NCBI GenBank assembly: GCA_961205875.1
Contig: OY540812.1
Span: 10,602,001-10,666,000 of the forward strand
Reading direction: 5' to 3'
Source of the DNA: Sialis fuliginosa
Taxonomy: Eukaryota > Arthropoda > Insecta > Megaloptera > Sialidae
Length of the DNA stretch: 64,000 bases
The position numbers and the translations under genes were made by a program. Within the stretch, counting starts at the first letter, position 1; each line of letters opens with the position of its first letter. Positions 4,331-26,015 of the stretch are shown piece after piece. The notes under the pieces are model-generated. The model was given only the letters and a program-made list of their open reading frames with translations, searched no databases and had not been told where the DNA came from.

Positions 4331-5611
4331 GGCCAAGTGCGTGTTGGGCACGCACATGATAGGTTTCCGTAGTCATTACGATTTATAAACAAGAGTTATT
4401 TCAACGGACGCTCTGATAACGACATTTAAATGCAAATATATCGTGACTGAAGGGTTAAAATCAAAAGGTCATATAACATTTTTTGTTGCATTTTAGGAGA
4501 CCTATCTAAAGATACCCCACTCAGTGGGTTAAGTGAAAAAAAATTTGAGAACAATTTTCAGTCTATGGGAGGGAGTCCAAAATAATTTTGACAGTGTTCG
4601 TTATAATTTTCAGTGAAAGTACTAACTCAAAGCTACATTCTGAATTTTTTTCAGATTTTTTGAATAGATAGTTTAGAAATTAGGGTGGGGGGGTCGCTCT
4701 GATAACGACATTTAAATGCAAATATATCGTGATTGAAGGGTTAAAATCAAAAGATCATTTAACAAGTTTTGTTGCATTTTGGGAGACCTATCTAATGACA
4801 TCCCACTCAATGGGTTAAGTGGAAAAAAAAATTTGAGAACAATTTTCAGTCTATGGGAGGGAGTCCAAAATAATTTTGACAGTGTTCGTTATAATTTTCA
4901 GTGGAAGTACTTATTAAAAGCTACATTCTAAAAAAATTTTAAGATTTTTTGAAAAGATAGTTTAGAAATTAAGGGGGGGGGACGCTATGATAACGACATT
5001 TAAATACAAATATATCGTGACTGAAGGGTTAAAATCAAAAGATCATTTAACATTTTTTGTTGCATTTTAGGATACCTATTAAATGACATCACATTCAATG
5101 GGATATGTGAAAAAAAAGTTGTGAGTTCATTTTTCAGTCAATGGGAGTGGGTGCCAAAATAATTTTGACAGTGTTCGTTATAATTTTCAGTGGAAGTACT
5201 AATTAAAGGCTACATTCATGAATTTTTTCAGATTTCTTAAATTGATAGTTTAGAAATTAGGGTGGGGGGACGCTTTTATCACGACTTTGAACGCAATTAT
5301 ATCGTGACTGAAGGGTTAAAATCAAAATGTCATATTGCATTTTTTTATTGCATTTTAGGAGACCTATCTAAAGACTCCCCACTTAATGGATTAAGTGAAA
5401 ATTTTTTTTTGAAAATACTTTTCAGTCTATGGAAAGGGGGTCCAAAAAATTTTTTTTTTCAAAAATATTATCATTTCTGTTTTTGGGTTATCAGTCTTCG
5501 TCTGTATACCAAATTTCATCTTAATCGGCTTAAAATTTTTGAGGACGGACGGACGGACGGACATGGCGAAACTATAAGGTTTCCTAGTTTTCTACGGAAA
5601 CCTAAAAATGG
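4331..5611 (+). repeat. Compound hairpin-ended repeat with four ~288-bp units and GGAC array (type A)
   Basis: The 5' end has a perfect 7-bp stem hairpin, GTGCGTG (4337-4343) and CACGCAC (4349-4355), followed by GGTTTCCGTAG (4362-4372). Four head-to-tail units begin at about 4409, 4695, 4983 and 5271, a spacing of 286-288 bp. Each carries the words ATATATCGTGACTGAAGGG and TTTTCAGTCTATGGGA or close variants. The 3' end is a short GGAC array near 5542-5561, then a hairpin AGGTTTCC...GGAAACCT, whose CTACGGAAACC (5592-5602) is the exact reverse complement of the 5' GGTTTCCGTAG, followed by TAAAAA. The design is like that of the two type B copies at 20,737 and 24,633, with different internal sequence. 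I recognise the style from insect genomes but cannot name the family. Confidence 0.8.
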
Positions 5612-6770
5612 ATAAGCAAAGGGTGGTGTGAAGGATTTAATTAACTGAATATTTCACTGACATTTACATTTTTTTTCTAAAATAAAAGTAGATATCCGCG
5701 TGTAACGGTGTTTTTTCGAGTCGTGGACTAGAGTCGATTTTCGCGTCGAAGAGAAAAAATTATTTTATTGAATACTTTAGTTAAATGATAGATATGTACG
5801 TTTGAACTTGTAGATTATAGATATTATGCAAATAATCGAAAGACGTGTGAAAGTTTTAAAGCAATATTTTTAGTCTTTAAAATAAAATTTCCCCTTTAAT
5901 GCATAACAAAATAAAAGCTTCTACGCATTTCAATTTTCAAAAATGTATTATTATTTTTTTATACCTATATAAAATGTAGGTTTATTATTCTACAAACATT
6001 CTTGGCATGTATTTTTGTTGGAAATATTAGTCACATTTTTTATTATTTTAAAATTGTTTCCAACAATTTTTCATATATAACCAGGAATTTTTTTAGTTAT
6101 ACATTCTATTATGTTCAAAAGCTCTATCTCAAAAATCAGCATAATTGAATATTAAATGGTTCTGATAAATGTTAAATGTCTGCACTTTACTATGATAATT
6201 TTTCACAACTCACATTTTACTAAAAGAATTATGTTAAATAGATATTGATTGAAGACTTCCATTTTCGTGAAAAATTACGTTTTTAAAACGTATATCTGAA
6301 ATAACCTTTTAGATTACACAAACAATGAAACCAAGAAAACATTCTACGAAAAACCAATTAAAGAGACAATTGTACTGTGAACACTTGTTGAAGGTATTTA
6401 ATTACTTTTTTAATCAGAATTAAATCCAATACAATCCTGGTGTAAATGTTAAAGGTCACAATATCGCTCTGAAGGAAGCGGGCCATTGTATGTATTATAA
6501 GTATGTATACAGTTCTTCCCTAAACACAAATTAACTTTTACTGAGTTTGCTAATAATAGTGACCAATTATTTGACCCCTATATACGAGTTTTATGTTAGA
6601 TGATATTTTTGGTAACAAAACAACTGAAGGCCCATTATCTTGCTTGCCGCAGAAAAATATTGGATATAAAATTATCAGAGCTAATTGCAGTCTAAAACAC
6701 ATTTTTTTTAATATAACCCATCTTTCCCCTATATTGAGGTACGGTGTTTGGAGCAAGATGAGTATACCGG
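5612..6770. other. AT-rich intergenic, nothing recognised
   Basis: Non-coding AT-rich sequence. The two overlapping opposite-strand frames at 6550-6781 show no domain. Confidence 0.55.
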
Positions 6771-7078
6771 GTGTTTTTTAAATACTTTCCAGCGGATTAT
6801 TTCCAAAATGACGAGTTTTCGGCAGAAATATTTCAGACAAAAGTTTCATGGTTTCGAAGGGACTAAATATTGACATTATGGGGTGACTTTAGAAAGGTCA
6901 CTTTGATGAGTTTTCAGGTTCAACTTCTCTTTTTCAAATCTAAACTTATATTTTTTGTTACAGATTCGTAATTTAAGAGATAAACTAAACAACTTTTGTT
7001 TGAAACATTTTTTTCTGAAAATTCGTCATTTAAATTTGGAAATAACCCGCTGGAAAGTCTTTAAAAAAACACCCGATA
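6771..7078. mobile_element. Fold-back MITE
   Basis: Inverted arms of roughly 90-110 bp begin CCGGGTGTTTTTTAAA at the left and end AAAACACCCG at the right. Both share ACTTTCCAGCGG, TTATTTCCAAA and ACGAGTTTTC-type words in inverted order. About 110 bp of unique sequence separates the arms. ATA flanks both sides, consistent with a short target duplication. There is no coding capacity. Confidence 0.7.
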
Positions 7079-7706
7079 TCTAATAATATTAATAATACCT
7101 ATATGTATTTTAAATGTAATTAAAACGAAAATGTTATGTTATTCGCAATTCATCTTGCGTTTTACATCATGCTTTTGATTTATGTCAAAATATTGTTTGA
7201 AGTCAAAAATAAGTATGATTTCTAATATTTTAAATAGTCTTAAAATGAAAATGAAAATTATAAGATATCTCTAAAACGACGAAGAAAATGGTACTTAAAT
7301 AAAAGTTGATCTGAAAGTATAACAAAGGTCTAGAGAGAAATGGGAATTGAATGGAAAGGCTGACATAGCATTTTGAACAGGACTGATGTTGAATCTGTGT
7401 TGTGATTAATGGAAGCTTGAAAAAATAATAACTCTTTTGAAAAGTAAGCAATTTTTATCGTTTATAAGTTTCATAAATTATGGCACAAACGCAAAAAAAT
7501 GTGAGAAAAGTTCTAACGTTCATGCATATATTCATATGTATAATTTTCGACATCAATTTAAACTAAAATTATGAAAACAAGCTTATTACAACATATTTTA
7601 CATGAAATTAAATCAATAACACTTTTCATTAATTCATGATTAAAACAAATAATGTAATCTGATCCTATTATAAAATACAAAAATTAATTAATATTCGCAG
7701 TATATA
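7079..7706. other. AT-rich intergenic, nothing recognised
   Basis: Non-coding. A minus-strand frame at 7230-7451 is a chance opening in T-rich DNA. Confidence 0.55.
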
Positions 7707-8531
7707 CTGCATGGGTTGAACAATGAAAAAACGATTTTTTTAAATAAAAAAAACTCTTTTATTCTTTGACATAATCTCCATCTAAAATAATGCACTTGTT
7801 CCATATTATAGTGGTTAGAGTAACATCTTTTGCCAGAGAGTCACATTTTCAATTTCGGAAAAAGGTAGTAGTCGCTGGGGGTTAAGTCGGGAGAATACGG
7901 TGGGTGCAGTACCAATTTACAGCGCAATTCCTTCAATTTATTGATCGTAACGTGAGCCTTGTGAGATGGTGCATTGTCTTGGTGAAACAACATTTTTGGT
8001 ACTCATTGCGCCAATGTTTTTTCATATGTAAACATTCATGAAAGACATAAATTCCTTTGATTTGTCTATGGTGTTAGCTAACTCACTCATTTCCACTTTG
8101 CGGTCATTCAACACAATTTCACGAATTTTTCAAATGTTTTCTGGAGTAACTGCCTCATTTGGCCTTCCTGAACGTGGTGCATCATTTGTGATAGTACGGT
8201 CACGACGAAACTCAGCAAACCAATATTTTACGGTTGAATTTGCTGGGGAAGATGTGCCGAAACACTTATTAAACCATTCTTTTGTTTGGACGATATTTTT
8301 CCCTATCAAAAAACAATGTTTAATCAAAACGCGAAATTCATTTTTTTCCATGATTAAAAAAAATAACAAAAGTAGCGTCACTTCGAAGGCTGTAACTTGA
8401 ACAAGAATACATTAAATGTCATGAAATTTGGACAGTATTCTAGTTAAGATTTGTACTCTATAGGAAGCATAAAGATTTTTTGTTCATGTCGCCATCTGTA
8501 TGGCAGGCCAAAAACTTTTCAGCCCGTGTAG
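7707..8531 (-). mobile_element. Defective mariner (Tc1/mariner, DD34D) transposon
   Basis: A minus-strand element of 825 bp is flanked by TA on both sides (7705-7706 and 8532-8533). Its ends match imperfectly (CTGCATGGGTTGAA against CTACACGGGCTGAA). Reading the minus strand from 8351, the transposase N-terminus MEKNEFRVLIKHCFLIGKN with the helix-turn-helix region and SGRPNEAVTPENI is typical of mariner. After a stop and a large internal deletion, the frame resumes with QDNAPSHKAHVTINK and HPPYSPDLTPSDYYLF, in which the last two catalytic aspartates are 34 residues apart. Full-length mariners are about 1.3 kb, so roughly a third is missing, including the first catalytic Asp region and most of the C-terminus. 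It cannot encode an active enzyme. Confidence 0.93.
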
Positions 8532-9743
8532 TAGATATGAGTATACGTTAACACACCCAACTGATGTAAGTTATTTTTTTCATACAATTGTGAGATGAAT
8601 CTGACGTAAGTGGTATAAATAATGAATTCAACAGCCATCAACTGCAGCGGGCTTAGGTCGTTCGTTCTCTGGAAAGGTTACCGAATAAATCACAAGAGTA
8701 TTTGCGAACAACACAGACAAACAGAATACACGGGTTTTTAATTTATTATTCTCGTACTGACATTTCACTTAGGTTGTTAGAAATTATTGTCGTTGCGTAG
8801 CCAAATTTTCGTGTTTTCTTTTTATTATATATTATCTTATGTAAACGTTTTTTGAATGCGTATCTATGTTGTTTATTTAATTTGAAACTGATGGTATTGA
8901 TTCACTCTACAAAACTAGATGTGACTCCACTCTCAAATCTTGTGCGGTCCCCCATTTAGAGATTCACATATCACGAGTTTTGTTTATTTTAATTTTTCAA
9001 AGATAATTCGTAACATTGACCTTTATTTACTCAACTATTTAATTTCTATACATTTCTTTCATCCAATTGACGGTCCGCAAGATTTAAAACAATTTAGTGA
9101 ACAAACATTAAATATTTAAACAAATTTTCAAATTGTTATTTAGTAATTCATGTTAAATGAATAAAAAAGGAAAATAACACACTTACATAACTGTAACTTC
9201 TAATGGCGAGGGTAAATAGGGGGTAGTTTTTTTTTAATTTTCAACTAATTGTAAGATTCAAAATATTTACGACTTTGTATAATGTTTAAAGAGCAATTTT
9301 TTTATTCCATCACCTGTCACGTATGGAGGATTTTAATTAGTTTCATTAGATCCGGCGGGAAAAATAGTACCCTCTATCTTGCATAGGAGCCGAGATATTT
9401 ACGAATTTATTTGCCAGATTTCTAAAATGCTCCAGCGGGGCAGTCTCGGACCGAGGAGGGAGGGTAATTTTAGGTTGCAGAATTTTTTTTTTTTAATTTT
9501 TTAACATACAAATAAATTCAACTACTAGTTATATACTTCTATATCAGTGGCGAAGCGTCCATGGAAGCAGGGGAAGCAATGTTTCCCTTACTTTATGGGT
9601 AAATTAATATAAATCTGTGTTTTCAGTTAATAAATAATTTAAAAATATTATTAGAATATTCGTCTTTATGCGCAACTCAAACATTTTAATCAAAAATAGC
9701 ATTTAATATTAATTTACATGCTCAGTTATAAAACTATAATACC
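8532..9743. other. Intergenic, no gene recognised
   Basis: Mostly AT-rich. The stretch at about 8635-8760 is of more balanced composition and could be a non-coding exon or old repeat, but I see no coding frame. A CAGTGGCG word near 9546 resembles an hAT-type end whose partner I could not find. Confidence 0.5.
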
Positions 9744-10473
9744 TCTACGTCTTATTTTCTTGTATTTTAGTCTATATTTGTATGACGAGTTGAAGTTCAC
9801 TGCAGGAAATTTCACTAAAAAATTTTGAATTTTTGATTACGTTAAAAGTATGTTTATTGTATAGAAAATTACGTGAAAAGTTGAAATTTTCAAACCGCAG
9901 GTCTGTATCTCAAACCGTTCTCGAGATACAGCCTCTCAAATTTTTAGTTTTTTCAAATTTTTGGAGAAAAAAGGCCATAACTTTGGAACGCGTGGTCGGA
10001 ATTGATTTTAGTTGACGGATTTGGAATCAGCGTGTCAAAATCTATATAATGACATGTATAATACCTTAAAACTCGAGAAAAAAAATTTCACGAAAAATCG
10101 AAAAAATTCAAAAAAATGTCGATTTTTGGCCAAAATTTTTTTGTCGGATTTTAAAGTATTATACATGTCATTATATAGATTTTATCACGCTGATTTCAAA
10201 TCCGTCAACTAAAATCAATTCCGGCCACGCGTTCAAAAGTTATGGCCTTTTTTCTCCAAAAATTTGAAAAAACTAAAACTTTGAGAGGCTATATCTCGAG
10301 AACGGTTTGAGATACAGACCTGCGGTTTGAAAATTTCAACTTTTCACGCCATTTTTTATACAATAAACATACTTTTGAAATCAAAAATTCGAAATTTTTT
10401 AGTGAAATTTCCTGCAGTGAACTTCAACTCGTCATACAAATATCGACTAAAATACAAGAAAATAAGACGTAGA
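9744..10473. repeat. 730-bp near-perfect fold-back element
   Basis: Arms of about 330 bp (9744 to about 10,075 and about 10,140 to 10,473) are inverted copies. TCTACGTCTTATTTTCTTG at the left is answered by CAAGAAAATAAGACGTAGA at the right, with internal words such as ACTTCAACTCGTCATACAAA and GTTTGAGATACAG paired throughout. Only scattered mismatches are present. The centre is an A/T-rich loop of roughly 60 bp. The short open frames inside are by-products of the arms. Confidence 0.85.
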
Positions 10474-12250
10474 ATCATTTAGTCACTATATAAATATATA
10501 TATAAGAATTTAAAAAAGTAAAATCTTGAATTTAAGGTGTTTCATAACTAGTTTTTTTTGTTAATAGGAGGGGGAGGATTGACAAAACGTTATAACGTAC
10601 GTTGTTAATGTAAATTTGGATTTAACAGATCCTCCATCCCCTAATTAATCCATAAAATCGAGGTTTTACTATACTTATAATCCAATTTTATGCAAATAGT
10701 AATATATTTCAACAATTACAAAAATTGTTTTTCTAGTAAATTGTCAAATATAAATCAAGTTAAAACTTTTTAAAAAGTCCAAAACTTTTTTTATTAATAT
10801 TTATTTCAGTTTGGATAACTTTGTTACTGTATTATTTCGAAACTTTTTCATGATAAAAACTGCATTTTACTGAAACTTGACGTGTGTTTAGATAACGATG
10901 TTTTTCAACATCTATTTAAATTTGATTTAATATTAGAATCTTAATTAGATAAAATGTGATGTTGAATATAAATAAATAGCCCTGAAAATATGTAGGTTCA
11001 GTAGCTATTAAAATGTTTATATAGGTTAAAAGATTTGCTTGTTTAAATAAACTAAAAATCAGTAACGGTAAAAAAAAACTGAAAGGTACTTGTCGATGAT
11101 TTTGAATTGTTTGCAAACATTTATTTTGAAATAAGAGCTTAAATATTTTAAAACCGTGTTTCAATAACTTCAGGATAAATTGAGAGTAGATACGTAAATA
11201 ACCTGAAAAGGTGTTTTCATTTTTTTCCCGAAAAGGTCAGAAAAAGCTTCACTTTATTTAAATGTAGTTAGGCAACGTGAAATGTGAATTACATGAAAAT
11301 ACAAATTATTTGAGAAAACTCTTATTTTATTATTTTCCCTTTTATTTAGGATTATTTAATTCAAATCAAATATTGCACGTTTTTCCTCATCACTTTTAAA
11401 ATGTCTTGGCACTTAAAGAAGAGAATTTTTATATGATATAAAACAGACATATTCTCTTGAAAGGTCAGTGGGTGCAAAATAACTCTTACAGTTTTTCATG
11501 AAGTCATAAAACCAGATAGTAAATTTATAAAAATGGAACAGTAGTAAACGATTTTAAAATTTAAATTTAATATTGATAATTTATTTTTTAAATATTATTC
11601 AATTTATATTTTAAATATTATTCAATTTGAGATCCACTAAATTTGATATAAGAAAATACGTATCATATATATTTTAATCTATTTATAAAGATACGAGTAA
11701 AATACTTATTTTAAGCTCAATTACATTTTTGGTAAAAATAGAATAAACTGAAAACAAGTAAAAAATTGCTTGTTTTCTTTACCAAATATTTTTTTTGAAT
11801 ATATTAAACACACAATTATGTATATTTTAAATTTGCATTAATTTTCATTTTGGTCACATGAAGATGATACCTCTACTCACATTTTAAAAACTTCAAACTG
11901 TCAATTTTTATTTACCCGTCATAAATATTTGTTGATTTTTAAATAAATATTAACTTAGTATTTTATTGTTTATTTAATGTTTGTTTTTCACTTTGAAATG
12001 AATTTTGTAAATGATGTCATCGATTTTCTGTGTAATTATGTTACTAACAATAAGTACATTGGTATTATTCATGTTTTAAGATTTGTAGAAAAAATGGATG
12101 CATATTATAGGTTATATTGATGAAATTAACATTTCTTTTGTCGATACAGAAATATCTAGGTACATGTATTATGTATGTATTACTATGTATAATAATGTAC
12201 TATGGGCTTCAGAAATCGTCTACCACCATAAAGGTCAGAATTGCTTACAT
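10474..12250. other. AT-rich intergenic, nothing recognised
   Basis: Very AT-rich. A short local duplication of TTTTAAATATTATTCAATTT lies at about 11,588-11,630. No gene was found. Confidence 0.55.
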
Positions 12251-12583
12251 CATTTTAAATAAAAACACAAATATACGTCTATTTCATTAATTAATTTTAT
12301 ATCAAGTTTGACTTATTTAAATACTAAAATTCGGAATATCAAATATTTATCACCGCAAAATTAACTTATACAATTTTCAATACATTACATAATAATTTAA
12401 TTGCACAAATATATAAGAGTACTATAAACGAAGAGCACCTCTTTATCCAGCAAATGAGTTTCAAAATATATGTCTTTGTTTGGTACATGGAGAAATGATT
12501 TAAATATTATAATAATCAAATTGCAGGAGCCTACTAAGGTTGTGATGAGCGAATTTGAATGAAAACTGGTCGACCACTTCTGC
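12251..12583 (-). repeat. Dispersed repeat, copy 1 (inverted partner at 22,960)
   Basis: This stretch of about 333 bp recurs in inverted orientation at 22,960-23,291. Shared blocks include TTTAAATCATTTCTCCATGT, GTAGGCTCCT, ATTCAAATTCGC and the end GCAGAAGTGGTCG. Identity is high apart from small indels. I found no transposase, clear terminal repeats or target duplication. The minus-strand frame at 12,397-12,585 is within the repeat and is not maintained in the other copy. Confidence 0.8.
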
Positions 12584-13309
12584 ATGCGACTCTACACACA
12601 TGCCATAAATGTTTTACCTATAGTCATTGAAACTATTTATATTATCTACTGTAATACTGATGTCATGAGGGTTTTTTTCTTGTTGCAATCTTTAGTAATA
12701 ATGTTGTGATATAAATATGCATTAAATAACTGTTATTTATATCTTTTGCTATATTGTTTTTAAATAAACATTACTTCCTTTTAACAGACAATACAATTTA
12801 CTTCATATTATTGTATGTTTATGTTTATTTTTTATATACATATATAAATATTTAGATCCTTATTATTTTAAATACTTAAGGAAGTAATTTCCTTTTCCAA
12901 GTATTTCGCACAATTCTCGAAAGAGGAAATTGTAACACTTACTATGCAAAATAACGACAAAGCAATAAGGTCTTCTCGGATATCTGATACACTTTCAAAC
13001 AAAAATGTGAATGGAAATTAGAAAATGTCTTTTGAAATTGCTTTTGAAAATATACGTATCACAATATCTATATGCAGGTGTATAGTTCTTACTTTAAAAA
13101 TATATTAAAATATTTGATTCACAAAAATGTAAAATTATGATTTGCAGATGCGAAAAGTAATAAAACATTTAATAAATTAACATTTAGCAAGATGTACATA
13201 CCTACCTAAAAAAATTAACACGTGATCATGACAATTTTATATCGATTTATACGGTTTTAAAATTTTTACTTCTTGATATACAAGCTTTAATGTTTCTGCG
13301 GTGATTTTG
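12584..13309. other. AT-rich intergenic, nothing recognised
   Basis: No gene or repeat end identified. Confidence 0.55.
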
Positions 13310-13425
13310 ATATGAATCTTGGCTTCTGGGCATAAACCGTGTCGGTTTGGTCTAGAGTCCTGAAGATGTCCACTGCAATATGCGACGAAACGTTAGCTGA
13401 AAGGACGACATCAACAAATACGAGT
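13310..13425 (+). repeat. Short copy of the palindromic CTGAAGATGTCC repeat family
   Basis: Begins near GAATCTTGGCTTCTGGGCA and runs through CTGAAGATGTCCACTGCAAT to GACGAAACGTTAGC. It is related to the copies at 27,867-28,069 and 54,166-54,308 but is shorter, lacking most of the central hairpin. Upstream GGTGATTTTGATATG matches flanks of the family elsewhere (TATCAAAATC at about 28,074). Confidence 0.75.
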
Positions 13426-15155
13426 ACGCTCCTAGTATCAATATTTAAACCTAAAAAAACCGCTGTTTATTGAAAGAACTACTCTGTTCCGGTACTATTT
13501 TAATTATTAGTTAGCCATTACCCACGTTTACTCGTTCAAATTATCTTCTTTTTTTTAATCTTATTCACATTTAAGTAAATCAAAATTAAAAATTCAATAA
13601 TAAATATTACTATATTTTTAAAACTCAATTTATGTAGGTATATAAAAAACGTATTTGTATCATAAATACAAATTATAATCAAACTTCAAATAATACGAAA
13701 TATATCGCAATCAGAATTTCACTTCACTTATTTTCAAATACCCATACTAGCATATATCCTGTCTCCGGTTTACAAACCTCGATCCATCTGAATCTATACC
13801 TAACCCTAGATCATAATTCCTACTCAATTACACCCTTTTCCCTTCATACAATGAATGGGATTGATCAATCAGCTAGTTGACAAAGAATTCGCCAAGTCAA
13901 CAACATCCCTGACAACAAAATGCGTTACTACTCCATTTATGCGTGTGTATGTGTGTAATCTGATTTTATTGATTTTTGTATTCGAGAGAGGGAGAGATGT
14001 ACTGGGATCCAGAATATATATAGCTGCGTTCCACCAACAGGCATGAGTGATATCCGGAAAGACCGAACCACACTGCACGATTTATGTGTTGATGTTGGTA
14101 ACGGTTGAGTTGGGTTTTAATTGTTGATAAAACAATTGACGATTGGGATTTGAGGAAAAAAAAATTTAATGGAATGATTTATTGCTAGTTTTGTTCTAGA
14201 AAGTTTGATTGGATTCATACCTAGGCAAATAAGACCCACCTTAATTAAAAATAAAAATAATAATATTAATTAACATAGCCTTTTTAATATAAATTACTTA
14301 TAAGTAATTTATATTAAAAATGGTAAACTTTGTTTTATTATTAATCTAAAGAAATATGAAAACCAACTTTTCTTAAATGATTTTTTCATTTTTAAGATTT
14401 TAAGACATCTTAAACAAAAAGTAACTTTGGGCCTTATTAAACTAGTCTGTAGGATCGCGCCAAGCTGAGATATTAACTATTCAACTTATTTGTTAATTTA
14501 TCAATTTTAATTTGTTAATAATAGGGGAACCAATCCCGGTTTTGTAGTTTAAGATAGCGATCCCCTAAATTGGGCCTTAGGCACTTGTATAATTTACTTA
14601 CTGTATAATGTGCCACTGTTTTAAGTAAGGCAAGCTTTCATCTTGTATTACAATAAACATCTTCAGATTTTTTTATAAAAATCTATTTTAGCTTTGTGTT
14701 TATTGCTTTACACTGCAACGTCTAATGAAATGCATCCATGTTATAATAAATAACACCAATGCGCACGCGATTGCACATAGTCTCGTGATCGTTGTATTTA
14801 ATAGCACCGAGGGTTAGGGTACATGGTGCATAAATGCATTTACAAAAAGAAGAGACGTTTCTCACTTTTATGCACTTCCCGTGATGCACTAATGTATCAT
14901 GTATCTTGTACATTTTTAATAGAGCTTTGATGCATAGATTACTTTGAAGTCATTCCTTTTTTAGATTTTTACTTCATATTCATACAAACTTTGTATATCC
15001 ATGCGAGAAGGATTAGTTATTTTTATATTTTTATAAAAATATAATTAAATTATTTATCGTTATCCTTATTTTCATGGATATTTTTAGGAACCCTTTATTT
15101 AAAATGTTAACCCCCTCCATAACAACATGGCGTAAAGTAAAACTATATTATATTG
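13426..15155. other. Intergenic with a perfect 40-bp palindrome
   Basis: No gene is supported; the opposed frames at 13,855-14,078 show no domain. Positions 14,281-14,320 form an exact palindrome (TTTTTAATATAAATTACTTA followed immediately by its reverse complement) with no spacer. Confidence 0.6.
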
Positions 15156-15378
15156 CTATGTAGGAAATGCCAGCCTTGAAGATAGGCCCAAGCTTGGGGT
15201 TGCCAAGTGTTGCTTTTTCAATTTTGGTCCCAGTCTAGGCCAACCTTCAGTCACCTATTCTTTACCAAAAATTGGGCCGAGTCTTGAGCGAAGTTATCAT
15301 TTGTATCTTGGCCCAGTGTTGGCTAACATTGGCGCAAGCCTGGACCAACCGGGGCCCCTTCGTAATTTCCTACATGGG
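15156..15378. mobile_element. MITE with ATGTAGGAAAT ends
   Basis: A 220-bp stretch of balanced base composition sits in AT-rich DNA. Its ends are inverted (ATGTAGGAAAT at 15,158 and ATTTCCTACAT at 15,365-15,375). The interior repeats GGCCCAAGCTTGG-like and TTGGCCCAG-like words in both orientations. No coding capacity. Confidence 0.7.
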
Positions 15379-17619
15379 TATTCGAATATTCACTAATGAA
15401 AATTCAATTTAAAAAATGATACTTTTACTAAAAAGGAAGAAGGATATTCTATAATGATTATTTTAACTTATTAAGAGCTACGATAGGAAGCCAATATATA
15501 TATATTTTACAAGTCGTATAGAGGGGTTACAAATGCTACAAGCAAATATTATTACTAGAGGAGGGGGTAAAAATGCTTTCAGAATAAGTGAATATTTATA
15601 GTTGTATACATAACTATCTATACATGCACGAAAAACGAACGAAGTGCCAATTTTTTATTTTGTTGGTTATTTCAATTTCAAATGTAATATGGGAGCCATT
15701 TGTTGGGCACCACTGACACAATGCGATCCAATTTTTCAAATTTACATAAAACATCAAATATAGCAAGTGAGAACAAAGTAAAAAAAGTTACGAAAATGAT
15801 AATAAAAAATAATATAAATAATATATAATATAATATAAATAATAAAAATTCTTATTTAGACAGAAACTTAAAATAAATATATGTACTATGTAAGTACCTC
15901 TCCTAAATTTTTTGTGTACGGTTTTTATTTAAAACTGACGAGCTACAAAAAATAGGGTTTGAACCAGACATACGACAAAGTAATTTAAGTAAGTCTTGAA
16001 AAACAGTTTAACATAAATTTTCCATGATAAAAATACACACGAGATATACGAGTAACATGAATAATTTAATTATAAACATCAACAAATATGTCGTATTTAA
16101 CTTGATGAGAAAAGCCGTAATGATTTGAAAACCGACGCCCTTATTTACAAACTCTACCTTCTCTCTCGTATCAAATGTCATGTTCATTGGCGGTCTGTAG
16201 AGAGAAATGTGAGAACATAAAAATACCGACCATAATGAGAAAAATTGCAATAAAAAAACTCATATTGACACATTGATTGAACATCACTTTGATACTTATC
16301 ATTATATTGTATTTTGCTTTTGCGTTTAAATCTCGTTTAATGAATTTTTCGATCATGTAAAAACATTACTTCAGAAGAGGTACATTATGTTACAGTTAAG
16401 GTTATAACTTTATTTACTACTATATCATTTATTATTATTCTCTACAGTCGAAACTAAAGCTTTAACTTTTATCAGAATAAGTAATTATATTCCTTATTTT
16501 AAGGATACAAAAGAAAAGTGATGTAAGAGCCTATATCTGCCTCCGCTGACCTTTATTTTCGAAATGTACGGTTTCATTTTCCTTATTAATAAATATGAAA
16601 GGTTTTTGAGAGATTTTTTTAAATTTCAATACCATTCATTAGAAAATAAATCCTTAACTTGGGTCGATCAAAATTAGTGAAAAATCACATTTTTTTCACT
16701 TTGTTTATTGTTGTTTTTGTATAATATTAAATTTATCACCCATTCAAATTGTACTTGTACCTCGTAGATTTAATCGAGATCTATAATTTGAGACCAAAAG
16801 CCGCGTGGTAGCTACTCTGAGTGTCGAGATATACTGATTATAAATTTACACTAGTGCGCAAAACTGATCTCTGCGCGTTACATCAAATTTCTGAAATGCC
16901 CACCCAGTATCAGACATTTTTCACGTCAAAAACAATTTTATTATAGTTTGAATACATTAAGTAAGCATATAGTATGCAGTTTTACCAACCCCCAGGTTGC
17001 CCACCACTGATTTTGTTACCGTGCGCCACCTTAGACCGAATTCGTTTTAAAAGCCGCGTATTTTATTATAGTTGATTAAAATATTACTGTAACACCCTTC
17101 TGTTTATTTTATGATTTAAGTTCTAACACACCCACTGATATTTCCTGCATTTATTTTAGGTTATAGTGCGGACGAACAGTGGCCTTTTTTAAACCAATAA
17201 TTACTTCCGCTGTTACATAATTATCAACAGCATTGTGCGTGCATTGTATAAAGTGACATGATTTTTCTCATCTTTGTTCAATCTTTTTTTCGTAAACTAA
17301 TTTAAATAGCCAGTTGCAGATAGGTTTGATTGATATGTATTTTTATAAGATTGGTAAAGAACGATTGAAACAGTTGAATAACCTATTCTATTTATGTAAA
17401 TTGATATTCATGTATTAAATTTTGTAATGCGATACTTACGAAAAAAATGTTTAAACTTTAACCAGCATATGTATTTCCTGATAATTCAATAAGTGCGTGT
17501 ATTTGTGTAATAGTTCCTATTTAATTAATTTCTAAACTGTATTGTAATATTTAATTATACCCTATGCTTTTGCAATTATGAAAAATATTGAGGGTCACGA
17601 TTTTGGTGTCTTAAGTATG
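15379..17619. other. AT-rich intergenic, nothing recognised
   Basis: No gene. The overlapping minus-strand frames at 16,008-16,356 are hydrophobic from T-rich codons and show no family resemblance. Confidence 0.5.
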
Positions 17620-17840
17620 CAGTGTAAGTGTTAAGTATATAGTGTACAGGAGGGGATGGGACAAATTTGAGGTAGCAACCAAAAAAAAGGTCATCAAAAT
17701 TACTAGAAAGACGCAAAATTGTGGATTGCCAGTGATAAATTTGAAAAAGTCTTCAATTTTCATATTTAGTATATAATGCGGGGAGGGGGGGGGGGATTTG
17801 CCATCTACCCCGGGCGGCAGAAATCTACGGTACACCACTG
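17620..17840. mobile_element. Non-autonomous hAT-like element
   Basis: A 221-bp insertion starts with CAGTGTA and ends TACACCACTG. It is flanked by the identical 8-bp duplication TAAGTATG (17,612-17,619 and 17,841-17,848). The interior contains a G-run near 17,779-17,795. The 8-bp duplication and CA(G)TG ends point to hAT; terminal repeats are weak apart from the outer bases. Confidence 0.75.
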
Positions 17841-18729
17841 TAAGTATGTATGTAGTTCATCTGTTCCCCCGTACTTTGAATTGGCAAGTTTTAGCGTAGT
17901 CGGTATTGATTTTTCCTGTATTTTTTTATTTTCCTTTTCTTTTTTAAGAAATTAAATATAAGTAAATGTAATTTATTATTTCTGAAACACTAATGGCGTT
18001 AATTACTTTTCTGTTCAATACTTATTCATCTTATTTTTGTTGAATCATTACAATTTATTTAAACTTTCGGTTTGTTTGAAAGAAAAGTAATAAAATCGAC
18101 TTTAAAAATATTCCAAGTTTCTTTAAAAACTTCTACGATAAACTTGATTGACGTAAACCTTCATATTTATCAATGTCAGCAATGTAGATATCACTGAATT
18201 TACAGTAATATCGTTAAGAATAAAAAATAAATCGTACGCCACTGATCGCAATGATGTATAACATTGTCGATGTGAATCAAGTAGTGAAAAACGGTAGATA
18301 TAAATCTTTGTATTTGTCTGCAAGAACAATAAAACCAAGCCGGGTGCCATTCCCATGTTGAGACGTCATTAATTTTGATTCTTAAGAGGGATTCTAACAA
18401 AAATCTCTGAGATTTTGATCACAGCCATCGTAGAGATGACACATGATTTGAATACCCAATTAAAACTTTTTAAACCTAACAGAATTTCTCGAGTACGTCA
18501 TCTACATATTAAGTCACCGTGACACGATTCTAGCTTTCACTGGAATTTTGAATAGATATTGTCTCTCTTCGTTTTCAGTACACATTTTCGTATTTTGAAA
18601 AATATATTTTCAATTATTTTTTTATTTAAATGTATAATTATAGAAAACTATACTGTATCTACTTCTAAAATTTCTATATCCATTTTATTTTTCAAAGTAA
18701 ACTTATAAAACCTCCTGGCTCCAATACTA
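17841..18729. other. AT-rich intergenic, nothing recognised
   Basis: No gene or element boundary identified; overlapping minus-strand frames at 18,123-18,400 have no domain. Confidence 0.5.
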
Positions 18730-19393
18730 TTATAAGGTGATTTACAACGAATGTAAAAAACTTTAACAGTGGATCGAGAATGTTATTTTAAGCAAAAATC
18801 TTCGTATGAACATGTGTCCGGAAATTCTTCTTGAGGGAGCTAGAAGCCCTCAAAATGTATTAGTTTTTATTTAATATTTGTAAAGCCTATTGTGATACAG
18901 TATGAAATTTCATGTCTTCTCGGTTTTCAGTATTAATCAATAAATACTTAGCCCAGGGGTGTATGGGGTAACCGAGCCGTTTCATTTTTATCTTATATAT
19001 TTTTTGTTTTTTATTTATATCATACACCTCTGTGCTCAGTGGCACACTCAGAAAAAAAATTCATTTTTTTACCTATCATAATTGTTAAATTAGTAATGTA
19101 TATTGACAAACACAGGGGTGTGTCTAACTCCCCCCCCCCCCCCCTGAGTGCACCACTGCCTGTGTTAAATAAATTTTGGTTGTTACTAAAAATCGATAAC
19201 ATTCATAAATATTAAACCGATATTCAAATTTCATAACTTTTCACGATGGGTTCTCCAAATATTAAATAAAAACTTGGGGGGAGTTGTAGCTCCTTCACGA
19301 AAACGGATATACATGTTCAAATAAATTTTTTTGCTTAAGATAACATCCTCGATCTACTGTTAATTTTTTTACACTCATTGTAAGTTGTATAAA
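18730..19393. repeat. Fold-back element carrying a nested hAT-like MITE
   Basis: Inverted arms of about 215 bp (18,730-18,950 and 19,180-19,393) share AACAGTGGATCGAG/CTCGATCTACTGTT-type words, TTAAGCAAAAA and GAACATGT in inverted order. Between them lies a second, smaller insertion at 19,037-19,158. Confidence 0.7.
19037..19158. mobile_element. Nested hAT-like MITE
   Basis: CAGTGGCACACTCAG at the left pairs with CTGAGTGCACCACTG at the right, 13 of 15 positions inverted-complementary. The flanking 8-mers TCTGTGCT and CCTGTGTT agree at 6 of 8 positions, as expected of an old target duplication. The interior ends in a run of about 16 C. Confidence 0.6.
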
Positions 19394-20129
19394 TAAAATG
19401 TATGTATTCTTTCTACAAACAGTTGTTTAAAATTTAAAAATCCGGTGCCTATCGTTTTTGTCTGCACATCTCACAACCAGTTCATTATTAAGTTAGAAAC
19501 AGAATAACTGAGAGAGTTCATCCATTGTGTGGATCTGTGGTCCTCAAACGGAGTGTCGCAGGAAGGTTCCAGGGGGATTTTTCTCCTCCAACGGAATAAA
19601 AAAAAAAAAAAAAAAATTAAAAACGTATGTAAAACTAAAATTAGTTTTACAGCTTAAAAAAAGTGTTTTCAGCCATTTTAATCAGCGTAGCGGATAAACA
19701 AATTATTTTTTTATTTTTTTCAAAATTGAGGTTGTAGAGAATTTTATGACGAATAACTTTTATTTGAAACTTTTTTTTTATACCTAATGCTTTTTAGACA
19801 AAAATCAGAAAATCTAAAAAATTTTGCAATTGAACCATGATTAACCCCTGTCGCGGACAACCAAAATCGGAGCAAATTTGGGGTATTATTCTACACCACA
19901 TTTGTAACAAATCCTGTGAGTATTAAAACTGTACCCAAAAATAATCTGTTTTATTTTATTTTATTTTTAACTTTAATGAAGAAGTGTGATTTATTTAGAC
20001 TCCTAAAGTATTCCTTTTATTACATAAAATATGACGACTGTTTATAGAAAAACCTCAATTTCGTGCATTCAATTTAAGGACCTTTAGGATTGCATATGAC
20101 ACGAGAGTCAACTAAGTCTAGTCTCGTCG
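19394..20129. other. Intergenic, nothing recognised
   Basis: Contains a long A-run near 19,590-19,617. No gene identified. Confidence 0.5.
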
Positions 20130-20350
20130 TTAAAAATATGTCTGTCTCGTGTAGACTCGTATCGTAAACGTGACTGAGACGAGATTTTTTTAGTCTTTTG
20201 ATGTTAAATCTTTGGTTTTCATAAAGTATTAATAATTAATAGCCACGAATATGCACAGAAAAATTATCTAACTATTAGTGAAAACCGCATTGAAATCGGT
20301 TCAGTAATTCCCGAGTCTATAAGCCTCATACAAACGAACATTCATTTTTA
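20130..20350 (+). repeat. Old retroposon-like 3' tail, left inverted arm
   Basis: Contains GAAATCGGTTCAGTAATTCC followed by GTCTATAAGCCTCATACAAA and a short AT tail, a wording like the 3' ends of some insect LINEs. An inverted relative lies at 21,524-21,662, where the middle 40 bp are absent. The class is inferred from the tail style only. Confidence 0.5.
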
Positions 20351-20736
20351 CATATAGAGATAATACTAGAACGTCACCTATAAAACTTTAAGAGCCACTG
20401 GTTTTGACAGGGCGATAGTTAAACTTTAATATATCGCGAATGTTTAATAGACTGTTCGATAGCTCCCGAAAGGTCAGAGGTAAATGCAGTATGTGGAACT
20501 AGAACAAGGATATGTAACTACACACATATGTATGTACGTGCTCCCGGTGGCGCCCGGATGATAGGTCATGCGAATGTTCTGACCTATTTCCGTATGTGTC
20601 TGTTTTGCAGGGAATTATTTATGGAATTATGTAGTGGTGTGTAAATCACATAGAATATTCCCGTTAAATTTATTGTTTCTCAAAAAGAAAAATCATGAGT
20701 AAAATATAAATCAATCAGTCTCTATATACATATAAT

Positions 20737-21527
20737 AATTCGAGCAAGACATACACGAGTGTATGCCATAAGGGTTCCGAAGTACGTACTACATGGAATG
20801 TTTGGAACCACTTACAGGTGCATTTTTAAGTTAGAAAAAAATATATAAAAGTGTCAAGTTCTACTAATTGAGATCTATATTTTGACACCCCACTTGCCTA
20901 GATTTCAAAATAAAAAAATCTATGACGCCCCTCCCTATAATTCCATAATTTAAAATTATATTGTTGACTTTAGTATTTGTCGTTGGTAGTCCTACCAAAG
21001 ACTCGTTACCAAATTTTTTTCAGATTTTTTGAGCCAGTAGTTACAGAGTTAGAGGGGGGGGGGACAAAATAAAATACTGCTTTTAGCCCCCTACAGGCGC
21101 CATTTTTCAGTTAGAAAAAATAATAAAAAATATGGTCAAATTCTACTAATTGAAATGTACATTTTGATATACAATTTTTTTTTATTTGTTTTAAGCCTCC
21201 TACAGGCACCATTTTTGATTTAGAAAAAAAATAGAAAAATGGTCGAATTCCGCTTGTTTGGTTATACATTTTAACGTGCCACATGCCTTGGTATAAAAAA
21301 AATATTTTTTTAAACTAGCTTTAGCTCCTTATTGCCCCCCCTGAAAAATTATTTATTCAATAAATTTGTACATATTTTACTAGAGTGTCATTTTACATGT
21401 TCAGTAAAAATTTCAAGTTTCTAGCTTATATACCTACATAGTTTACGAGCTATTTAGCTTTGAGTGAAACGGACGGACGGACGGATGACAAAGTGAAATT
21501 AATAGCGTTTCTTCGGAACCCTAAAAA
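20737..21527 (+). repeat. Compound hairpin-ended repeat with GGAC array (type B, short copy)
   Basis: The 5' hairpin is CATACAC-GA-GTGTATG (20,750-20,765), then GGGTTCCGAAG (20,772-20,782). Unit starts marked by CAGG(T/C)(G/A)C(C)ATTTTT lie at about 20,816, 21,095 and 21,203, giving one full unit of about 280 bp and one short one. A GGAC array (about 21,470-21,485) precedes CTTCGGAACCC (21,511-21,521), the exact reverse complement of the 5' GGGTTCCGAAG, followed by TAAAAA. A longer copy with more units is at 24,633. Confidence 0.82.
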
Positions 21528-21662
21528 TGAATGTTCGTTTGTATTAGGCTTATAGACATTGTTAGATAATTTTTCTGTGCAAATTCATCGATGTTAATAT
21601 TTTATAAAAATCTAAGATTTAAGATCGAAAGACTAAAAAATCTTTATCAAGTCGTGTTTTGT
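21524..21662 (-). repeat. Old retroposon-like tail, right inverted arm
   Basis: Reverse complement of parts of 20,150-20,350: AATGAATGTTCGTTTGTATT and GATAATTTTTCTGTGCAAAT are shared in inverted orientation. It directly abuts the 3' end of the type B repeat, so the GGAC-array repeat lies between two inverted copies. Confidence 0.6.
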
Positions 21663-22959
21663 TCCATGATGTCACAGCATCTAACTAAAGGCAATAAATT
21701 AAATACATTATAAAAATCGTTTTACCTGTTTTGAATAATCGACAGAAAAATATCGTTATGTAGATAAAATAAAATAAAAATATTGATACAATTTTATTTT
21801 TATATTTTTGAGGAGATTAAAATTTTATCAAAAACATACATAATTTATGTAGGTACAAGAATATCTTTTAAATAGAAACTGTCGTAAAACGTGAAGACTT
21901 CTATACGATTCACATTTCAAACCGTTCTCTAAATGTATCTTCTGAATGAATTATTATTTATTTTTAAATAAAATGCGTTGGAAGTTTATAAATAAGTTTT
22001 TCCCTTTCATTCAATTTAAAAATGTTGTTTGGCAACATGAAATTAACTATGTAATTTCTAGAACCAAATATAACATCCTCATCCTAAATTGTATCCTACC
22101 TAGTCGTATTTCTGCAATTGCTTGCCCTACAATTGTGTAATTGTAGAACGAATTAAACACTTTACTTGATATGGGTATAACTGCCAGGCGCTCTCTTATA
22201 TTTATTGTTAATACAGCTGATGATAACTAAATGCTTTGTAGACTCCTATGTTATATTTAACGATCGTTTTTTTAAATCATATACAATTTAATTAATTTAG
22301 AACCTAAGCTCACAAGTAACGAATGGGATTTTCAAACGTACCTACTTTAAAGACAGTTTTTTTGTTTTGTTTTTTTTTCCTGCATGATTTCATAGCTACA
22401 TATATATATGGTCATAATGATTGATATCATTTGAAAGATATATTTTCTCACATAAAAATAACAGTCGTGTTTTGAAAAAATTGAGTAATAAATTCTCAAA
22501 TATTGAAAAATGCACTGGATTAAAATCAGATATTTTTCAGGAGGTAACAAGGCTCACTGCTTTACCTATATATTATAACAAAGATAGAAATATTGCGTGA
22601 CTTGTGTAATTTCACGGAAATTTTAAAAAATATCACGAATAAGCCCAAATTTTATAAATAACTAAATTCAAAATCCTGAAATGATTCACCACCTGTATGC
22701 AAAGATATCTTCAAAATAAAATCATTAAATTTAAAAAATACCTTAACACCAACGAACTCCATATATCTTTAAATGTCACTAAAACGAAACGATATTTTTA
22801 TATTAAAGTGGAGAGAAAAGGCGTTATATGAAGAAAAAACAAAAGGTTGCTTGAAAAGTGCACTTGAATTTCCTATTGAACTTTTATGAAAACATTTTAC
22901 GCAAATAAATCGCCAGGTCCTTACTTTTGACTTAAAATATGTATTAAGTACAGTGAAAT
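21663..22959. other. AT-rich intergenic, nothing recognised
   Basis: No gene; frames at 21,946, 22,347 and 22,769 show no domain or splice context. Confidence 0.5.
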
Positions 22960-23291
22960 GCAGAAGTGGTCGGCCAATTTTCATTCAAATTCGCGTATCA
23001 CAAACTTAGTAGGCTCCTCCCATTTGATTATTATAATATTTAAATCATTTCTCCATGTACACCAAACAAAGACAGATATTTTGAAACACATTTGCTAGAA
23101 GTACTCTTCATTTATAGTACTCATATATATATATATATTTGTGCGATTAAATTATTATGTAATCTATTGAAAATTGTTTAAGTAAATTTTGTGGCAATAA
23201 ATATTTGATATTTCGAATTTTAGTATTGAAATATGTTAAACTTGGTATAAAATAATGAAATGGATGTATATTTGTGTTTTTATTTAAAATG
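22960..23291 (+). repeat. Dispersed repeat, copy 2 (inverted partner at 12,251)
   Basis: Runs from GCAGAAGTGGTCGG to TTTTTATTTAAAATGA and matches 12,251-12,583 in inverted orientation over its length. This copy has an expanded TA run near 23,123-23,138. Confidence 0.8.
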
Positions 23292-23894
23292 ATTTTTGTT
23301 TACTATTTTTCAAATAAATCACCCATTTACGATACTCAAGTTAACATTGCTAACGAGACGAGTTTCCTAAAACGTGTGTATACATAAATTTATATAAAAA
23401 AACGTTTCGGAATCTGGCTACTTATTGTTTTCACTAGGACCGGAAATGTGTAAATTAAAGACGTCACGTTTTAGTATAAATAGTGACGGAATACGTGAAA
23501 ACATCACCATCCTAGTAGGCTTTGTATGTTGTTGTTGTGGCATAGCCGTCTGCGATTCTGTTGTTTCTGTCAACTCAGTATAAATAAGACAACAAATTCT
23601 TACACGAGTTTCTGACAGATTACACACTGTTGAAATCAGAATTTCCTCTCAACAGTTATGCGAGTCGTTCAGAAGAAAAATCGATCAACAGTCGAAAAAA
23701 TCGATGTTTGTCAATAGGCTAAAACTTATTCAATTTGTAATAACATTTTTGTAAAAAAAAAGAACATTCTGTTCTTGAGTTTTATGAACCATTTTTAACT
23801 CCCAATAAAAAATGGGGTTTTGCGTTTCAAAACCTACATTTCTTTAGCTGTATGTTCGTATATACATATATACATATATATTATAAGTTTATAT
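23292..23894. other. Intergenic; GC-richer island at 23,400-23,700
   Basis: The part from about 23,400 to 23,700 is less AT-rich than its surroundings and contains GACGTCACG (an ATF/CREB-like site) at about 23,461 and ATAAATA boxes. It could be a promoter or non-coding first exon, for example of the tetraspanin downstream, but no coding frame was recognised. This is inference only. Confidence 0.35.
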
Positions 23895-24102
23895 CAGTGG
23901 TTCTTAAACTTGGGTCCGCTAAACTTTTGTCGGGGGTCCGTGAAACATGTTTGGCATAAATTAAAGTACTTTTAGATTTCTATTTACCAGTGATTAATTA
24001 GTATCTAATGACCTTCTTTGTTTTTCTATCCGGGGGAGGGGGTCCCTAAAAAATAATTGTTCGAATAGGAGTCCCGAAACCTTATAAGTTTAAAAACCAC
24101 TG
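23895..24102. mobile_element. Non-autonomous hAT-like element
   Basis: CAGTGGTTCTTAAACTTGGG at the left end pairs with TAAGTTTAAAAACCACTG at the right, classic hAT-style ends. The 208-bp interior has two GGGGGTCC-like words and is non-coding. A clean 8-bp duplication was not seen, so the flanks have probably drifted. Confidence 0.72.
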
Positions 24103-24632
24103 ATCTAGATAATTTCTCTTTCTCATTAACACGGATCTTCACTTTATATAATTATACATTTTGGTAATATTAGCACTTTATTCATACATGACATAGGTAC
24201 ATGTATTATAATACAAGGTGTAAAGTTATTTGTTTGACAAACATCAAAGGTTGTGAACTCTTAGATGATGAGAGTTAAGATTATCATCTTACTTGTAAAC
24301 ATGCTGCGAGTATTTGTAAACCATACAGTCATCGGCCTTCCACAGAACTTTGGTGTGCATGGGCGTCTTCAAGGAAGGGTATAAAAGGGCATAAAAAGAA
24401 TAGTACCTATCTATAATATACTCTACAGATTTTTACATCACATAGAACTCATTTTCCTGTAGAACGTTCATAATCAATATCTTCAAAATGTTGATTATTA
24501 ATTTAAAATAAAAAGTATACTTAGTTACGCAAATTGGCGTGAATTTTATTATTAAAAGGGAATATTTTTGTACTACAATCAGTTCTCGACTTACGGTCAT
24601 TCGGACTTACGACGGAGAATAAAATAGTAATA
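24103..24632. other. AT-rich intergenic, nothing recognised
   Basis: No gene or element found. Confidence 0.5.
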
Positions 24633-26015
24633 ATTCGGGCAAGACATACACGAGTGTATGCCATAAGGGTTCCGAAGTACGTACTACGTGAACTGTTTGA
24701 AACCACTTACAGGTGCATTTTTAAGTTAAAGTTAAAATATAAAAAAGTGTCAAGTTCTACTAATTGAGATCTATATTTTGACATACCACATGCCTAGATA
24801 TAAAAAAATAAAAATTTTATGACGCCCCTCCCTATAATTCCAAAATTTAAAATTATATTGTTGACTTTAGTATTTGTCGTTGGTAGTCCCACCAAAGCCT
24901 CGTTACCAATTTTTTTTCAGATTTTTTGAGCCAGTAGTTACAGTGATAGAGTAGGGGGGGACAAAATAAAACACTGCTTTTAGCCCCCTACAGGCGCCAT
25001 TTTTGAGTTAGAAAAGAAATAAAAAATATAGTCATGTTCTACGAATTGAGATGTACATTTTGACATATCACATGCCTAGATATGAAAATAAAAATTTTTA
25101 ATTCTCTTACACCCATCCCTATTATTCCAAAATTTAAAATTATATTGTTGACTTTAGTATTTGTCGTTGGTAGTCCCATCAAAGCCTCGTTACCAATTTT
25201 TTTTCAGATTTTTTGAGCCAGTAGTTACAGAGCTAGAGGGGGGGGGACAAAATAAAACACTGCTTTAAGCCCCCTACAGGTGCCATTTTTGAGTTAGAAA
25301 AAAAATAAAAAATATGGTCATGTTCTACGAATTGAGATGTACATTTTGACATATCACATGCCTAGATATGAAAATAAAATTTTTAAATTCTCTTACAGCC
25401 CTCCCTATTATTCCAAGATTTAAAATTATATTGTTGACTTTAGTATTTGTCGTTGGTAGTCCCACCAAAATATCGTTACCAAATTTTTTTCAGATTTTTT
25501 GAGCCGGTAGTTACAGAGTTAGAGGGGGGGGGACAAAATAAAATACTGCTTTTAACCCCCTCTAGGCGCCATTTTTGAGTTAGAAAAAAAATAAAAAATA
25601 GGGGCATATTCTACTAATTGAGACGTAAATTTTGATATACAATTTTTTTGTTTTTTTGGATTTGCTTTAAAGCCCCCTACAGGCACCATTTTTGATTTAG
25701 AAAAAAAATAAAAAAAAGGGTCAAATTCCGCTTGTTTGGTTATACATTTTAACGTGCCACATGCCTTGGTATAAAAAAAATATTTTTTTTACCTAGCTTT
25801 AGCTCCTTATTGCCCCCCCTGAAAAATTATTTATTCAATAAATTTGTACATATTTTACTAGAGGGTGTCATTTTACATGTTCAGTAAAAATTTCAAGTTT
25901 CTAGCTTATATAGTTTACGAGCTATTTAGCTTTGAGTGAAAAGGACGGACGGACGGACGGACATACGGACGGACGACAAAGCGATATTAATAGGGTTTCT
26001 TCGGAACCCTAAAAA
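24633..26015 (+). repeat. Compound hairpin-ended repeat with GGAC array (type B, long copy)
   Basis: It has the same ends as the copy at 20,737: hairpin CATACACGAGTGTATG (24,645-24,660), GGGTTCCGAAG (24,667-24,677), a GGAC array (about 25,943-25,962, extended to 25,975) and CTTCGGAACCC (25,999-26,009) plus TAAAAA. Internal unit starts lie at about 24,711, 24,991, 25,276, 25,562 and 25,678, so three full units of 280-287 bp plus one short one. Each full unit carries TTGTCGTTGGTAGTCCCACC or a close variant. The two type B copies therefore differ mainly in unit number. Confidence 0.85.

Follow-up and report, generated by a model that had tools for sequence, protein, structure and literature searches.

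Probable Helentron-type elements with subfamily-matched ends in the genome of Sialis fuliginosa

Three repeats of one design

A stretch of 64,000 nucleotides from the Sialis fuliginosa genome (C4:10602001-10666000, GenBank contig OY540812.1; hereafter the window) contains three repeat copies, one of subfamily A and two of subfamily B, which are very probably non-coding copies of Helentron-type rolling-circle transposons of the HINE/DINE-1 layout. This identification is based on a layout equal to that of HINE/DINE-1 elements, on the presence of Rep sequences in the genome, on insertion into A/T runs and on the matching of the two ends, which is kept in a third subfamily, C. The GGAC repeats of this genome thereby receive a most likely identity, and the occurrence of three matched end pairs (A, B, and C) within a single genome, where A and B have hundreds of copies, offers a ready system for the role of subterminal inverted repeats (subTIRs) in Helentrons. 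The genome searched comprises 392 Mb in 20 contigs.

The initial annotation had described all three repeats as a hairpin, a short block, tandem units, a GGAC array, a complementary block and TAAAAA, and direct reading of the sequence confirms this common design. As the elements lie on the minus strand, the side then taken as 5′ is the 3′ side of the transposon. Read on that strand, the order is a T-run, the 5′ subTIR with a nested inverted repeat (IR), a GTCC microsatellite, tandem units, the 3′ subTIR, a terminal hairpin and a T-rich end (Table 1). The 7-bp hairpin stem lies 12–14 nt and the hairpin-side subTIR 36–37 nt from the terminus, while the opposite subTIR adjoins the T-run. Across the three arrays of the window, GGACGGACGGAC has 7 overlapping matches, as opposed to none in 100 shuffles.

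Canonical Helitrons (Helitron1) have a 5′ TC, a 3′ CTRR and insertion between A and T; the ends observed here read AGG... beside the T-run and ...TTA, with insertion into a T-run. A search for viral contigs carrying CTACGGAACCCTAAAAA returned one contig, which its surroundings mark as a chance match.

In a Helentron-type mechanism, a Rep/helicase protein supplied in trans would nick at the T-run end, one strand would be peeled off with a halt at the hairpin, and the single strand would be inserted at another T-run. Recognition of both ends would depend on the two subTIRs, which perhaps also bring the ends together, each active lineage (A, B, and C) keeping its own matched pair. With the subTIRs as recognition marks, it is proposed that only elements with matched ends would transpose well.

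Copies and subfamilies across the genome

Exact hairpin ends occur 770 times in the A/C type (pattern GGNTTCCGTAG) and 682 times in the B type, and the 3′-end pattern gave 1214 and 668 matches, overlapping matches inside one array being scored separately, as opposed to 0 for a reversed control. A 670-base query from an A copy returned 3994 candidates, and all 40 that were scored, the window copy included, span the query at 95% or more; a 364-base B query gave 3200 candidates, 40 of which were scored, with matches of 93–100%. Among the first 100 listed of the 770 A/C-type ends, 80 belong to A (T at block position 3), 18 to C (G), and 2 have A at this position.

Subfamily C carries the blocks GGGTTCCGTAG and CTACGGAACCC. 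Most of its copies are decayed and, decay aside, its ends keep the pairs G3/C and T9/A, so that the matching is retained. Five ends that were neither A nor B were fetched for this subfamily (L072–L076). Three of these (L073, L075, and L076) have an A-type hairpin and the 5′ blocks GGGTTCTGTAA, GGGTTTGTAG, and GGGTTTCGTAG, respectively, in which position 3 is G and the AG/AA is preceded by T, as predicted from CTACGGAACCC, again apart from decay; L072 starts inside the block and lacks the hairpin, and L074 shows no 5′ block within 1.5 kb. Five further copies were chosen by exact GGGTTCCGTAG (L079–L083), among which L083 ends in CTTTGCAACCC, L081 in CTACAGCACCT, and L080 in CTACGGAATCT, the end of L082 being partly lost. 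One of two GGATTCCGTAG copies, L078, ends in an uncompensated CTACGGAAACC; the second, L077, shows no end within reach. The C end pairs place A and B each one matched change away from C. Since C is the most decayed, with perfect hairpins in none of its 18 listed ends (58 of 80 in A, 85 of 99 in B), it is probably the oldest subfamily. The IR of the C copy L083 also harbors a nested insertion (reverse strand, ~570–1165) of hAT-like look, with ends CAGGGACTTGAACC / GGTTCAAGTCCCTG and bordered by repeated GGTTCCTAG.

Matching of the ends between subfamilies

The 11-bp end blocks of A and B differ at block positions 3 and 9, and each difference is exactly matched at the opposite end, in agreement with the compensation initially annotated. 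In folding, the blocks pair over 12–13 positions with their neighbors included. Joined ends fold together in both A and B, and mixed A/B blocks fold worse than matched ones (−6.9 and −8.5 vs. −12.8 and −13.9, DNA parameters). End matching is a property of the subfamily and not of the single copy. The 3′ block is complementary to a local left arm as well, in A, in B copy 2 and, imperfectly, in B copy 1; it therefore has two possible partners, and the long-range partner is not unique. This arm reads GGTTTCC in A, GGGTTCC in C, and AGGGTT in B (imperfect in the copy at 20736).

The covariation score over 15 distinct end pairs is 0.227, compared with 0.142 in shuffles, none of 500 reaching the observed value, and no more than 0.060 when the partner is slid. 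Paired cells amount to 93.3% vs. 87.5% shuffled (0 of 500 as high), and two-sided cells to 8 vs. 4.0 (2 of 500). The less biased measures show no excess, with 2 pairs changed on both sides vs. 1.8 shuffled (293 of 500) and 9 further pair types vs. 8.5 (230 of 500), so that the covariation signal amounts to two inherited events. As the alignment rows are related copies, partly picked by their end letters, the shuffles are no independent test. The pair alignments leave out L075, which has a block deletion, L082, which has lost part of its end, and L077 and L079, which show no GGAC end within 1.5 kb. L019, in which a nested insert separates the hairpin end, ~600 bp upstream, from the rest and which added one uncompensated change, was in the first alignment and was then left out as doubtful, with the score nearly unchanged. 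The insert of this B copy, ~600 bp long, lies at the hairpin-side subTIR (reverse strand, ~623–1215).

Selection on matched ends is plausible, resting on these two inherited events. The initial annotation had proposed that selection acts to preserve pairing between the ends, whether as RNA or as single-stranded DNA, an explanation that concerns only the cause of the matching and is compatible with a Helentron. This may be the case, albeit we consider it somewhat doubtful. Two pairs do change on both sides between subfamilies, the covariation score exceeds those of shuffled and slid partners, mixed blocks fold more weakly, and pairing of subterminal inverted repeats has been predicted in print, possibly as a requirement for movement (PMC4344730). 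Against this stand the number of independent events, only two, with pair and type counts within the shuffles, the compensation of 1 of 80 changed pairs in copies, and the local arm as a second partner of the block. Moreover, one protein recognizing both ends would keep them matched without base pairing and thus makes the same prediction. Nothing speaks for pairing as RNA; an Rfam scan of window positions 4000–27000 gave zero matches.

The hairpins had been described as unlike in sequence, yet each pairing perfectly. Their 7-bp stems are indeed perfect in the window, but the B hairpin is a replacement and not a series of compensatory substitutions, because its loop has 2 nt vs. 5 nt in A and it is out of register with the A hairpin.

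Changes within individual copies

Compensation of end changes genome-wide, on which the initial annotation had let its proposal depend, is not borne out in the copies, where none of 9 subTIR changes is compensated and, among the 71 hairpin pairs that changed in the listed A, B, and C ends, one is. Among the listed ends, 80 A copies have 29 changed hairpin cells of 560, none changed on both sides, and 99 of 100 B copies, a row with a 2-nt insertion being left out, have 17 one-sided and no two-sided changes of 693. The 18 C copies have 22 one-sided and 3 two-sided changes of 126, one of these three still being paired, and hairpin pairs are unchanged in the two listed copies with A at position 3.

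The subTIR comparison covered 11 A and 25 B copies that have both ends, 36 in total and without L019; neither block is altered in 10 of the A and 19 of the B copies. Nine one-sided substitutions and no compensated one were found in 35 of these copies, plus one deletion counted apart (L051, a block deletion with 5 changes). The raw listing held 37 pairs with 18 one-sided changes, from which L062 (A; 4 changes) was dropped for combining the ends of two different elements; the L057 row, in which a B 5′ end is combined with the 3′ end of an A element, was skipped. Two-ended copies lean to the well-kept because they are mostly the best matches to the window copies. A fourth letter combination is scattered, with 16 distinct 3′ ends CTTCGGAAACC (19 rows) in otherwise A- or B-like context. 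A comparison of the full lists by eye showed that the 9 places with ATGATAGGTTTCCGAAG are all more than 3 kb away from each of the 16 exact CTTCGGAAACCTAAAAA ends. Such decay is to be expected of inert copies, so that the copy test counts against compensation in copies and not against selection on active masters.

The ends might also be matched by copying, one end templating the other in a foldback intermediate, such that a change would be carried over to the opposite end and no second, compensating mutation would be needed. Of the two-ended copies read in the three subfamilies, none represents a half-changed lineage, single departures being scattered, and the local arm, too, has a different position 3 in A than in the other subfamilies. 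However, this explanation left no direct trace, the two-ended sample is small and leans to well-kept copies, and B local-arm variants such as AAGGTT, which stand beside an unaltered block in 6 distinct ends of the listing, were not copied; we regard it as quite improbable. A broader conjecture, speculative and on balance unlikely, treats the two subTIRs and the local IR of Helentron-type elements as a set of three whose likeness would be maintained in a single-stranded and perhaps circular intermediate, either through pairing of the strands or through copying from a template. End specificity would then shift by matched jumps, from C to A and from C to B, each giving rise to a new subfamily.

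Insertion sites, truncation and coding partner

An A copy (L007, C8) and a B copy (L059, C13) are inserted at the same base and in the same orientation in the A-run of one host repeat, whose flanks are 91% alike over 114 columns (5′) and 92% over 137 (3′), both reaching the junctions. Another A copy (L002) has 22 nt before the junction and, by eye, 14 nt after it in common with these, and its flanks diverge farther out. The empty host repeat reads CACAAATATAAAAAAGGCAGTATTGGG; a pattern able to find empty copies only returned 41 of them, 29 with exactly six A. Filled sites read three A, the element and five A, L007 having an extra A in place of a T. Both flanks of two-ended copies are A-rich. 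The empty and filled sites fit insertion into a T-run with 0–2 nt ambiguity, as described for HINEs (PMC4067079). Among 37 flank pairs, sharing does not exceed shuffles (at least 5 nt, 9 vs. 8.7; 6 nt, 3 vs. 2.3; 7 nt, 0 vs. 0.46), and flank-to-flank BLAST within 150 bp found nothing in 35 two-ended copies, a set without the window copy at 24631.

Completeness depends on the end by which copies were sampled. All three A copies sampled by the GGAC end keep the hairpin end, and 2 of 7 copies sampled by the hairpin end (L077 and L079) show no GGAC end within 1.5 kb. In the B-type sample taken by the GGAC end (C1:0-2.1 Mb, L014–L036), whose constancy at this end follows from the sampling, start points vary, and L020 and L034 start directly after the G-run of a tandem unit. 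A constant starting and a variable terminating end would result from the rolling-circle model or from deletion in old copies.

Helitron Rep is represented in the genome by 30 matches grouped into 21 places. The frame of L069 has 1675 aa and shares the helicase motif DECSM with L085. L070 encodes 1983 aa with Helitron_like_N, PIF1, DUF6570 and STPR repeats, and its relative L084 is split into shorter frames. The motif of L070 is DEISM, a form characteristic of Helitron2/Helentron elements. No clear matched ends of its own emerged when L070 was scanned for them. Two Helitron Rep frames of 1987 aa, one of them L070, lie in opposite orientation ~7.4 kb apart (C3:36039380 and 36047214).

Several observations weigh against a Helentron identity. 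The filled sites possibly carry a 2-nt (AA) duplication or an element-borne A. The truncated C copy L072 (reverse strand, ~850–910 and 1600–1661) is bordered by 62-bp direct repeats, 92% alike, which the Helentron model leaves unexplained unless the site was already duplicated. The hairpin end is missing within 1.5 kb in 14 of the 16 B copies sampled by the GGAC end, as 5′ truncation of a long or short interspersed nuclear element (LINE or SINE) would also produce. Finally, no autonomous element with these ends was found at the four of the 21 Rep places that were inspected (L069, L070, L084, and L085), where 7.5–9.9 kb fetched contain scattered one- or two-mismatch matches and no subTIR beside a GGAC array, and no Helentron endonuclease was found, no endonuclease family being reported for L070.

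The truncation, the 62-bp repeats and the constant TAAAAA end, read as a short A tail beside a 3′ hairpin, would suit a SINE or LINE-derived retroposon. Yet target duplications are not above chance in the flank pairs, A-run insertion with known empty sites accounts for the tail, and a terminal hairpin with matched end blocks is foreign to SINEs, which makes this origin very unlikely. A cut-and-paste miniature inverted-repeat transposable element (MITE) with terminal inverted repeats is scarcely credible: the end blocks are inverted, and lepidopteran relatives were first published as MITEs (Coates 2011, title as cited), but the hairpin-side block lies well inside the element, the hairpin is at a single end and there is no duplication except possibly AA.

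Features of the window

Table 1. Parts of the three HINE-like elements, in window coordinates.
Feature	Position	Strand	Remark
Subfamily A, whole copy	4325..5608	-	transposon 5′ end near 5608
A terminal hairpin GTGCGTG-TTGGG-CACGCAC (3′ stem-loop)	4337..4355	-	arms 4337-4343 / 4349-4355; direct reading
A 3′ subTIR, GGTTTCCGTAG on +	4362..4372	-	direct reading
A central tandem repeats	4406..5453	.	288-bp unit x 3.6
A GGAC x5 (GTCC microsatellite)	5543..5562	-	transposon 5′ part
A IR arm GGTTTCC	5578..5584	-	complementary to adjoining subTIR, folds with it
A 5′ subTIR, CTACGGAAACC on +	5592..5602	-	then T + AAAAA
Subfamily B, copy 1	20736..21527	-	
B copy 1 terminal hairpin CATACAC-GA-GTGTATG	20750..20765	-	
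B copy 1 subTIR GGGTTCCGAAG	20772..20782	-	direct reading
B copy 1 GGAC array	21471..21482	-	
B copy 1 IR arm AGCGTT	21504..21509	-	imperfect; direct reading
B copy 1 subTIR CTTCGGAACCC	21511..21521	-	
Subfamily B, copy 2	24631..26015	-	
B copy 2 terminal hairpin CATACAC-GA-GTGTATG	24645..24660	-	direct reading
B copy 2 subTIR GGGTTCCGAAG	24667..24677	-	direct reading
B copy 2 central tandem repeats	24708..25639	.	286-bp unit x 3.3
B copy 2 GGAC array	25943..25975	-	
B copy 2 IR arm AGGGTT	25992..25997	-	direct reading and fold
B copy 2 subTIR CTTCGGAACCC	25999..26009	-	

The window also contains a short MITE-like repeat at 23893–24104 with the inverted ends ATCAGTGGTTCTTAAACTT / AAGTTTAAAAACCACTGAT, and open frames at 40956–43738 that by eye resemble Apaf-1, combining WD40-like repeats with a P-loop stretch.

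Comparison with known systems

Coates reportedly described in 2011 a lepidopteran MITE, MINE-2, with a hitchhiking (GTCY)n, subterminal inverted repeats said to read AGGGTTCCGTAG / CTACGGAACCCT, a WTTTT target and a TT duplication. Those letters would presumably equal subfamily C and lie one matched change each from A and B, and lepidopteran elements of HINE/DINE-1 layout are described under this name. The string AGGGTTCCGTAG was not met in the literature text searched for it. One microsatellite primer from the moth Lymantria dispar contains the letters ACGGAACCCTAAAAA (PMC5677484).

The HINE/DINE-1 layout was defined by Thomas (2014; PMC4067079), who also notes that DINE-1-like elements from a number of animals, including Bombyx and Danaus, had earlier been annotated as MITEs. 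The window elements share with it subTIRs of 11–15 bp, an IR nested at the 5′ subTIR (DINE-1), a microsatellite, central repeats, a 3′ stem-loop and a T-rich target without target modification. They differ in having their own sequence, and no autonomous partner was found at the 4 of 21 Rep places inspected. Under the family rule of that paper, which asks for 11 or more identical bases in the subTIR, A, B, and C would count as three families. In HINEs of mites, the hairpin-side subTIR lies 38–60 nt from the terminus and the corresponding distance of the other subTIR is 2–4 nt, as compared to 36–37 nt and a place beside the T-run here.

Matched subTIRs and the idea of their pairing are already in print. 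Helitron2_Cv of Calliphora vicina has 11-bp subTIRs, a partial IR, a GTCY-rich protosatellite and a terminal stem-loop; it differs in sequence and in a stem of 9 bp instead of 7 bp (PMC3630058). FoHeli of Fusarium, of Helitron2 type, has asymmetric terminal inverted repeats varying between subgroups and evidence for joined ends, and some of its ends read ATTTT, where subfamily A ends in GGCCATTTTA; unlike the window elements, it is coding and fungal (PMC5148889). In Cg_HINE of Crassostrea gigas, which differs in sequence and host, the parts follow the same order, with GTCY/GTCC microsatellites and satellite-like central repeats, and subTIR, IR and stem change element by element, as they do in A, B, and C (PMC7492417).

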